Below are positions 37,118 to 39,720 of a stretch of DNA of 64,000 bases, in pieces. The stretch is from Chloroherpetonaceae bacterium (GTDB lineage Bacteria > Bacteroidota > Chlorobiia > Chlorobiales > Thermochlorobacteraceae): NCBI GenBank assembly GCA_025056565.1, contig JANWWA010000001.1, positions 407,966 through 471,965 on the forward strand, in the 5' to 3' direction. Position 1 is the stretch's first letter, and each line of letters starts with the position of its first letter. A program made the position numbers and the translations under genes. The notes below the pieces were generated by a model. The model searched no databases. It was not told the origin of the DNA and was given only the letters and a program-made list of their open reading frames with translations.

Positions 37118-37462
37118 ATGGATAAACAAGAGAAGCATCTGACGCCCGAAGCAGCACTGGAAGAATTGGAACGGTATGTAGAACACCTTGTGTCAGAAAA
37201 CTTAGCTCTGCGGCGTGAGAAGGAAGCTTTGTTGCGACAGCTGGAAGAGCAAACACACCTTGCTAATCAGCTTTTGCAGCAGCATGCTTCACTTGCGCCT
37301 GTTTCTTCGGACACTGCGCAACCGCCCACTACACCAGATGAGCCAGTCGTGGTTCTCACGGCCTCAGAGCGACTTTATTTCAAGGAACGCCTTACGCACC
37401 TTCTGGAAAGGATTACGCTTGAATTACATCGCTTAGATGCGTCAGGCACACCAAGCTCATAG
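37118..37462 (+). CDS. Small coiled-coil protein next to zapA
   Basis: 114 residues, no recognised family. Two charged heptad helices (EELERYVEHLVSENLALRRE and SERLYFKERLTHLLERITLE) are joined by a Pro/Thr-rich linker (SSDTAQPPTTPDEP). It begins 112 bases after pheT and ends 14 bases before zapA. The position just upstream of zapA and the coiled-coil nature resemble ZapB-like division proteins in other bacteria, but homology is not visible. A role at the division ring with ZapA is inferred from position only. Confidence 0.7.
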   Translation: MDKQEKHLTPEAALEELERYVEHLVSENLALRREKEALLRQLEEQTHLANQLLQQHASLAPVSSDTAQPPTTPDEPVVVLTASERLYFKERLTHLLERITLELHRLDASGTPSS

Positions 37463-37476
37463 CTTCATTTTCTGCA

Positions 37477-37761
37477 ATGGAACCCATCAAAGTGCGCATA
37501 TTTGGAGAAGAGTATCCGCTGCTGGTGGAAAATCGCTTTCTTACGGAATCAGCTGCTCAGCAAGTTGATGCTCAGATGCATGAATACCGCCGCAAAGGCA
37601 TAGATTTAGGTACCACAAAACTTGCAATTTTAACAGCTGTCAATTTTGCAGAAAAAGCCCTTGAGCTTGAACAGCGATTAAACCATCTTACCAGTAAAAT
37701 TACACAACTTACCCATCAAATTTCGCAACATTATACTGGTAAAAATCTTTATTCTAAATAA
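37477..37761 (+). CDS. zapA: Cell division protein ZapA
   Basis: 94 residues. It shows the ZapA N-terminal strand-turn (IKVRIFGEEYPLLVEN), the helix carrying ESAAQQVDAQMHEYRRKGI, LAILTAVNFAEKALELE and a C-terminal coiled coil (LEQRLNHLTSKITQLTHQIS). ZapA crosslinks FtsZ filaments. The order pheT - coiled-coil gene - zapA - RNA - rny is preserved in related bacteria as I recall it. Downstream lies a candidate 6S RNA. Confidence 0.9.
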   Translation: MEPIKVRIFGEEYPLLVENRFLTESAAQQVDAQMHEYRRKGIDLGTTKLAILTAVNFAEKALELEQRLNHLTSKITQLTHQISQHYTGKNLYSK

Positions 37762-37798: not shown

Positions 37799-37846
37799 CC
37801 TAAGTGCTTATCTGAACATGGGTTTTAATCCGCACCAGTACTTAGG
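37799..37846 (+). other. Stem-loop between zapA and the candidate 6S RNA
   Basis: CCTAAGT (37799-37805) is perfectly complementary to ACTTAGG (37840-37846). The 3' arm overlaps the first two bases of the RNA's closing stem, so it may be a zapA transcript end or a pre-RNA fold that is removed on processing. There is no T-run. A clear promoter was not found. Confidence 0.35.
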
Positions 37847-38043
37847 GCTGTGCATTTGAACACAAAGAATCGTTGCTAATACAACAGGGAGCTGTTCTCT
37901 CGGCGTTGAATGCAGGCCTCACTCAGACTCAGCTCTGAGTTGTCTCAACAATCGCTGGGTTGATTGTTGGGCGCAGTGGAAGCACGAGACGTTGAGGACG
38001 CACCCATCTTGATGGTCTGGATTCTTTGGACCGAACACAGCCC
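37845..38043 (+). ncRNA. ssrS: Candidate 6S RNA (ssrS-like), 199 nt
   Basis: In the 366-base gap between zapA and rny no ORF is supported, but long-range complementarity is strong. GGGCTGTG (37845-37852) pairs perfectly with CACAGCCC (38036-38043), and CAAAGAATC (37863-37871) pairs perfectly with GATTCTTTG (38020-38028), giving two stacked stems that close a rod of about 199 nt. Toward the middle are AACAG/CTGTT and CCAT/ATGG side hairpins of a bubble, TCTCG/CGAGA, then apical hairpins CTCAGA/TCTGAG (37922-37939) and CAACAATC/GATTGTTG (37946-37969). Rod, bubble, size and location after zapA are the 6S RNA pattern; 6S RNA binds and inhibits housekeeping RNA polymerase. It could also be the rny leader. 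A T-run follows at about 38060. Confidence 0.65.
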
Positions 38044-38127
38044 GAGGACGACGTGCGGATTTTTTATTTCGTCAATTGTTTTTACCGTATTTCTAATACT
38101 TGTAACAACACGGAGACCATTTTAGCT

Positions 38128-39720
38128 ATGGAAAGTGTTTTGAATATCTCGATCAACTTTGTGGCAGTTATTGTCTCGTCATTGGTTTCCTTCATCATCG
38201 GCTTTTTTATCAGCCGCTACATTTTGGATAGAGTTGGCACGACCAAAGTCTTAGAAGCAGAGGAACGCGCTGCTCAAATCATTCAAGAAGCGCAGCGCGA
38301 AGCGCAGGCTCTCAAAGACGCAAAGATGGAAGAGGTCAACGAAGAGTGGCGACGCAAAAAGCGTGAGTTTGAGCAGGAAGTCAATATCAAGAACAACAAG
38401 TTTGCCCAAGCACAAAAGCAAGCGAAGGCAAAGGAAGAAGCGCTCAACCGCCGTGCTGAACAGCTTCAAAAGCGCGAAAAAGCCCTCGAGGAACTCCAGC
38501 GAGAGCTGCAGCAAAAGATGCAGTTTGTTGAGCAGCGTACCGCTGAACTGCAACATCTCATTTCCGAACAAAATCAGCGCTTGGAAAACATCAGTGGTTT
38601 GAATGCAGAAGATGCCAAAGCAATGCTGATTGAAAATCTTATCGCAAAAGCCAAAGAAGAAGCGGCAGAGACACTGAAAGCCATACACGACGAGACGGCA
38701 GCCAATGCTGAGAAAATTTCTGAAAAAGTCATTATGTCCGCTATTGAGCGCACGGCACCGAATTTAGCGATTGAAAACACGGTTACTGCTGTGCACCTGC
38801 AAAGCGATGAGCTAAAGGGTCGCATCATCGGTCGTGAAGGGCGCAATATCAAAGCCTTTGAAAATGTTACAGGCGCTGAAATTATCGTTGATGATACGCC
38901 TGAGGTGGTCATCATTTCCTGCTTTGACCCGATTCGCAGAGAGCTTGCCAAGATGACCTTGCAGCGCCTTTTAGCCGATGGGATCATTCACCCAGGCACG
39001 ATTGAAAAAGCCTACCAAGCGGCTCAGAAAGAGCTTGATGAACTTATTATGAGCGCAGGTGAAGACGCTGTAGTGCAGCTTGGCATCCCTAACTTTCACC
39101 CTGATATTGTCAAGCTCATTGGCAAGATGAAGTTCCGCACCAACTATGGGCAAAACTTGCTCAAGCATTCACTCGAGGTTGCTATGCTCGCAGGTTATAT
39201 GGCTGCCGAACTCAAATTAGATACGAAACTGGCTAAGCGAGCTGGGCTTTTGCACGATATTGGCAAAGTGTTGGAGTCGCAGGAACAGCCGCACGGCTTA
39301 GCTGGCGCTGAATTTTTGAAAAAGTATAAAGAACCGCCTATTGTAGTCAATGCCGTAGCGGCGCATCACGGTGATGTTCCCAAAGAGCATCCTATTGCCG
39401 AGTTGGTCGATATTGCAAATGTGATGTCTGGCTCTCGTCCCGGCTCACGCGGTGCAATTACCCCAGAAGGCTATATCAAGCGTTTGGAGAGCTTGGAAGA
39501 AATTGCCCGCTCTTTCCAAGGTGTGGCAAGAAGTTACGCCTTGCAGGCAGGTCGTGAAATCCGCGTTATTGTCGACGGTGAACGCATTAGCGACCAGCAA
39601 GCAGATGCGCTCGCACACGATATTGCACACAAGATTATGACCTCCGTGCAGTATCCCGGACAAATCAAGGTTACGGTGGTGCGAGAGACACGTGCGGTCG
39701 CATATGCGCGCGAGCGATAA
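38128..39720 (+). CDS. rny: Ribonuclease Y
   Basis: 530 residues from the ATG at 38128; the longer frame starting at 38026 runs back into the RNA gene and is not a real start. A single N-terminal membrane helix (FVAVIVSSLVSFIIGFFISR), a long coiled coil (about residues 35-210), a KH domain (HLQSDELKGRIIGREGRNIK) and an HD domain (HSLEVAMLAGYMAAELKLDT, LLHDIGK). RNase Y starts mRNA decay at the cytoplasmic membrane. Its gene follows zapA and the candidate 6S RNA. Confidence 0.95.
   Translation: MESVLNISINFVAVIVSSLVSFIIGFFISRYILDRVGTTKVLEAEERAAQIIQEAQREAQALKDAKMEEVNEEWRRKKREFEQEVNIKNNKFAQAQKQAKAKEEALNRRAEQLQKREKALEELQRELQQKMQFVEQRTAELQHLISEQNQRLENISGLNAEDAKAMLIENLIAKAKEEAAETLKAIHDETAANAEKISEKVIMSAIERTAPNLAIENTVTAVHLQSDELKGRIIGREGRNIKAFENVTGAEIIVDDTPEVVIISCFDPIRRELAKMTLQRLLADGIIHPGTIEKAYQAAQKELDELIMSAGEDAVVQLGIPNFHPDIVKLIGKMKFRTNYGQNLLKHSLEVAMLAGYMAAELKLDTKLAKRAGLLHDIGKVLESQEQPHGLAGAEFLKKYKEPPIVVNAVAAHHGDVPKEHPIAELVDIANVMSGSRPGSRGAITPEGYIKRLESLEEIARSFQGVARSYALQAGREIRVIVDGERISDQQADALAHDIAHKIMTSVQYPGQIKVTVVRETRAVAYARER

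Follow-up and report, generated by a model that had tools for sequence, protein, structure and literature searches.

A divergent 6S RNA between zapA and rny in the Chlorobia

6S RNA, a well-known small RNA, mimics an open promoter and thereby shuts RNA polymerase off. Here we ask whether such an RNA is encoded in the gap that separates zapA from rny in a heat-loving photosynthetic bacterium of the Chlorobiales, whose genome is of the Candidatus Thermochlorobacter type. A preliminary description of the window (the whole 64,000-nucleotide stretch analysed) had named a candidate 6S RNA there, a 199-nt rod at 37845-38043. This proposal is borne out by a full-length match to the Rfam 6S model, the only one in the genome, by the position between zapA and rny and by covarying stems. 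The element is a divergent but genuine 6S RNA, and we put the probability that it is the 6S RNA of this organism at about 95%. It occupies positions 37829-38060 of the forward strand (about 232 nt), and its parts and neighbours are the following:

37477-37761, + strand: zapA, the upstream neighbour (Pfam ZapA, E 6.7e-14)
37829-38060, + strand: 6S RNA gene (ssrS), predicted mature RNA of about 232 nt with approximate ends (RF00013, 30.0 bits; covariance model R1, see below, 154.7 bits)
37830-37835, + strand: outermost closing stem, 5' strand CCGCAC, pairing with 38053-38058; overlooked in the preliminary description
37845-37852, + strand: second closing stem, 5' strand GGGCUGUG, 8 bp (covariation helices 2 and 3)
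37863-37871, + strand: third closing stem, 5' strand CAAAGAAUC, 9 bp (helix 4); by homology the putative template of the product RNA
37872-37886, + strand: central bubble, 5' strand, mean pairing probability 0.23 and 74% A+U over 50 loci
37887-37919, + strand: upper stem, 5' strand, with conserved GGGAGC and GCAGGCCU; pairs invariant or compensated (helices 5-8)
37920-37976, + strand: apical head of two hairpins, 37921-37940 and 37941-37975
37977-38005, + strand: upper stem, 3' strand, with conserved UGGAAGC and CCC
38006-38019, + strand: central bubble, 3' strand, following a conserved CCCAC/CCCAU; mean pairing probability 0.56 over 50 loci
38020-38028, + strand: third closing stem, 3' strand GAUUCUUUG, pairing with 37863-37871
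38036-38043, + strand: second closing stem, 3' strand CACAGCCC, pairing with 37845-37852
38053-38058, + strand: outermost closing stem, 3' strand GTGCGG, pairing with 37830-37835
38060-38065, + strand: T-run TTTTTT abutting the outermost closing stem, also present in relatives
38128-39720, + strand: rny (RNase Y), the downstream neighbour (Pfam RNase_Y_N, E 7.6e-44; HD and KH domains)

Read from the outside inward, the RNA has a closing stem in three segments, then a central bubble, an upper stem and, at its apex, a head of two hairpins. Both complementary end segments that had been reported, of 8 bp (37845-37852 with 38036-38043) and 9 bp (37863-37871 with 38020-38028), are present, and the rod that they close is real; its limits, however, had been drawn too narrowly, because the CCGCAC/GTGCGG stem pairs outside them and extends the element from 199 to about 232 nt. 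The T-run placed just after the rod likewise exists, but it abuts this outer stem and not position 38043, and the two together form a probable terminator. The gap had also been said to hold no supported ORF, and this stands: the element has none of its own, and the rny frame enters it only if extended upstream to a TTG at 38026. Consensus scans recognised no promoter upstream of the element and yielded nothing useful for terminators, as the latter scan cannot detect a stem that encloses the entire RNA.

The identity of the element was examined with the Rfam 6S and 6S-Flavo models, both of which the preliminary description had suggested. At gathering cut-offs, Rfam gave no match in the window. 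Below them, RF00013 (6S) aligned to 37829-38060 from model position 1 to 187, with 30.0 bits and an E-value of 2.3e-4, so that the homology covers the whole model length. It is the only meaningful Rfam match to the element, and at E<=1 the genome contains no other 6S match. Since 30.0 bits is below the curated cut-off of 46.4 bits, default annotation misses the element, which is not a formal member of RF00013. Searching the window genome with the 6S-Flavo model (RF01685, cut-off 85 bits) returned nothing at E<=1, and a 6S-Flavo identity was rejected on this ground.

To the extent that the element departs from the curated family, one may think of a different polymerase-binding RNA that has only the outline of 6S, for example an Ms1-like RNA, which binds the core enzyme. 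The sub-threshold Rfam score would agree with this, as would features unlike those of E. coli 6S (the two-hairpin head). We nevertheless consider it highly improbable, given that a full-length 6S profile match is found at the zapA locus common to proteobacterial 6S (PMC7641849) and that no other relevant Rfam family matches the element at E<=10. The 6S assignment is also in line with the architecture. Like RF00013 and E. coli ssrS, the element is a rod in which a closing stem, a central bubble and an upper stem lead up to an apex, it shares with the RF00013 consensus a conserved GGG...CCCAC core pairing, and it is encoded directly after zapA, as is E. coli ssrS. The element is longer (about 232 nt versus 183 in E. 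coli) and its head consists of two hairpins.

Support for the structure comes from an alignment (A1) of 50 distinct locus sequences, in which covariation was counted on the named structure of 38 pairs; a consensus computed by RNAalifold from all of A1 was poor, owing to misalignment of the variable head, and the named structure was counted in its place. Overall, 91.5% of cells are paired, and 18 of the 38 pairs show two-sided changes, in 71 cells. In 500 shuffles of A1 the means were 8.4 two-sided pairs and 18.3 cells, and none reached the observed 18 and 71. These shuffles ignore the relatedness of the sequences, which is preserved in a control with slid partners; there pairing falls to 40-49%, with 6-11 two-sided pairs against the 18 observed. 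Moreover, when 3' strands were exchanged among 26 representatives with less than 85% identity, the native pairing energy was matched in 0 of 20000 permutations, with the same result for the closing stems and for the upper stem.

Covariation in both closing stems had been set as a test by the preliminary description, and it was found in both. The 8-bp stem, the most variable of all, has two-sided changes in six of its seven counted pairs, and the 9-bp stem, with 98% of cells paired, in four of six. The outermost stem is paired in 98.7% of cells over the 50 loci and is nearly invariant, so its support comes from conservation and not from covariation. The alternative that the pairing arose by chance in an intergenic stretch draws only on the fact that folds of single sequences can mislead. 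It is refuted by the compensatory changes in both stems, and it also disagrees with the conservation of the element across the whole class and with the fold of the region (-89.9 kcal/mol versus -72.6 for shuffles; z -3.5, 0 of 200 shuffles equally stable); we give it practically no weight.

Folds and covariation in the 50 loci agree on a rod with a closing stem, an asymmetric central bubble, an upper stem and an apex. In many relatives, per-sequence folds place a small hairpin in the 3' bubble strand after CCCACC. In the upper stem, GGG/CCC, GCAGGCCU and UGGAAGC are invariant; its inner part is less well kept (76% of cells paired), partly because the register differs between families. The head forms two hairpins in 48 of the 50 loci, with a mean z of -3.3 in 26 representatives, and its sequence is not conserved. 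The gap holds an evolutionarily constrained, gene-sized RNA rod with an A/U-rich bubble and a two-hairpin head, placed after zapA and homologous to 6S.

By homology with known 6S RNAs, we infer that this rod binds RNA polymerase and serves as a template for product RNAs. It would imitate the melted DNA of an open promoter, so that the housekeeping holoenzyme would bind the bubble and be sequestered as growth slows. When nucleotides return, polymerase would begin to transcribe the 5' strand of the bubble near 37873-37874 and copy towards 37863, giving a short product RNA, about AACGAUUCUUUGUG; this synthesis would melt the third closing stem and release the enzyme. The proposed start is based on sequence analogy at the bubble edge, where E. 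coli has GAGCCGAU, the element has GAAUCGUU at the aligned bases and one relative has GAACCGAU; in E. coli, product RNA starts there at U44.

RF00013 matched 76 of 98 Chlorobia genomes at E<=0.1, but in none of the 98 was the cut-off passed, which indicates that the class is systematically missed by default annotation. R1 is a covariance model made from A1; its 50 training loci include the window sequence, and the remaining loci lie outside the training set. R1 finds the element in 93 of the 98 genomes and in 73 of 74 good assemblies. The single exception among the latter (G020) also lacks pheT and rny, so that an assembly gap, rather than loss of the element, explains it. Two weak extra R1 matches (E about 0.002-0.006), one of them on the opposite strand of the element itself, were treated as chance. 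In the reciprocal test R1 did not find E. coli 6S, and against 20 6S-Flavo loci it gave one weak match only; the family link therefore rests on the RF00013 profile, the shared locus and the architecture.

Comparison of the zapA-rny gap in relatives, another suggestion of the preliminary description, showed that the element is kept there in the loci examined. The gap measures 291-490 nt in the 50 loci and the element lies inside it, directly upstream of rny, in all of them; for two of them (L023 and L032), in which tblastn with the ZapA of the window gave no hit, distance from rny defined the gap. A position after zapA is usual for 6S genes, though not obligatory. The RNase Y of the window is 86% identical to that of Candidatus Thermochlorobacter aerophilum, the nearest named relative. 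Just downstream of zapA, some 20 nt ahead of the point where 6S begins, Chlorobiaceae loci (e.g. L001, L011, L021) share a conserved TTACATTGA that may be a -10 element; the Thermochlorobacter family is without it, and several of its loci carry TTCTTTGAAA in its stead.

Outside the order, a phylum-wide RF00013 search in which position was not used gave seven matches, all downstream of pheT, and R1 recovered every one of them (E 3.5e-17 to 1.3e-4). Six sit after pheT and directly before rny, and four of these have ZapA just upstream by tblastn (L056 and L061 do not). The seventh, in family f16, follows pheT and a ZapA N-terminus, and rny was not found adjacent. Two hairpins form the head in five of six loci examined from two other families, the sixth being cut at an earlier motif copy; in the third outside family (f16, L091) the head is short and lacks them.

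The constant neighbourhood of rny raises the question of whether the element is instead a structured 5' leader of that gene, exerting cis control of RNase Y through a closing stem and T-run that act as an attenuator. The element does lie directly upstream of rny in 50 of 50 loci, with the T-run directly after the closing stem. The matching profile, however, is that of 6S, a free RNA; the f16 element has no detectable rny adjoining; in E. coli fau, not rny, follows zapA and 6S; and the head sequence varies freely while the rod is kept. We judge a leader very unlikely, if somewhat less so than an Ms1-like RNA, and retain the 6S reading.

In E. coli, ssrS lies directly after zapA and is followed by fau, and ssrS after zapA is a known arrangement in beta- and gamma-proteobacteria (PMC7641849). 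6S-Flavo was proposed as the 6S of Bacteroidetes (Weinberg et al. 2010, PMC2864571), and in the same phylum Bacteroides thetaiotaomicron expresses a 6S RNA with product RNAs, as seen by dRNA-seq (PMC7366714). Among the 21 RF01685 matches in Bacteroidia, 20 are directly upstream of rny with a ZapA gene upstream (Pfam-confirmed for one), the same position in the same phylum as the element. 6S-Flavo further shares with it a GCAGGCC-like motif, and its outer closing stem likewise abuts a T-run; the RF01685 model itself spans 108 nt, a rod shorter than the element and topped by one apical hairpin, in contrast to the two-hairpin head. The remaining match (L089, in G126; 38 bits) is weak, lies away from zapA and rny and is probably due to chance. 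The 6S-Flavo loci L069-L088 have an extra outer stem beyond the 108-nt model (at about positions 1450-1700), as in L070, with GCCCACATTG/CAATGTGGGC and then a T-run, which suggests that RF01685 is truncated.

Since 6S matches in other classes and 6S-Flavo share this place, the zapA-6S-rny locus looks ancestral in Bacteroidota. A wider proposal, for which we would give slightly less than even odds, is that the 6S of Chlorobia and some neighbouring classes forms a subtype of its own, marked by a conserved head of two hairpins, that zapA-6S-rny is ancestral to Bacteroidota, that RF00013-like 6S and 6S-Flavo are one orthologous gene split by models, and that the extra hairpin might reach a surface of polymerase or sigma that is unused in E. 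coli.

The less ordinary points are that a whole class was missed, that the head has two hairpins and that the locus is common with 6S-Flavo. Too low a score from the standard model has left a global transcription regulator unannotated across a mostly phototrophic class (98 genomes tested). A lineage-specific model can be built from the present alignment and structure, which also provide a covariation-backed reference; the element is useful for annotation and for the Rfam model, and 6S control of energy-limited states in green sulfur bacteria becomes testable. The zapA locus is common to the 6S RNAs of Chlorobia, other Bacteroidota, 6S-Flavo included, and Proteobacteria. A literature search, with the main 6S-distribution survey outside its scope, found no report of a Chlorobi 6S or its transcripts; earlier surveys (Wehner et al. 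2014) may include some Chlorobi candidates, and we do not claim a first report.

Between pheT and zapA, the window also contains an ORF of 114 aa (37118-37462), predicted to form a coiled coil and without a Pfam family above cut-off. It may encode a ZapB-like partner; the ORF at the equivalent place in a Bacteroidia locus (L069) has a weak ZapB match (E 0.0033).
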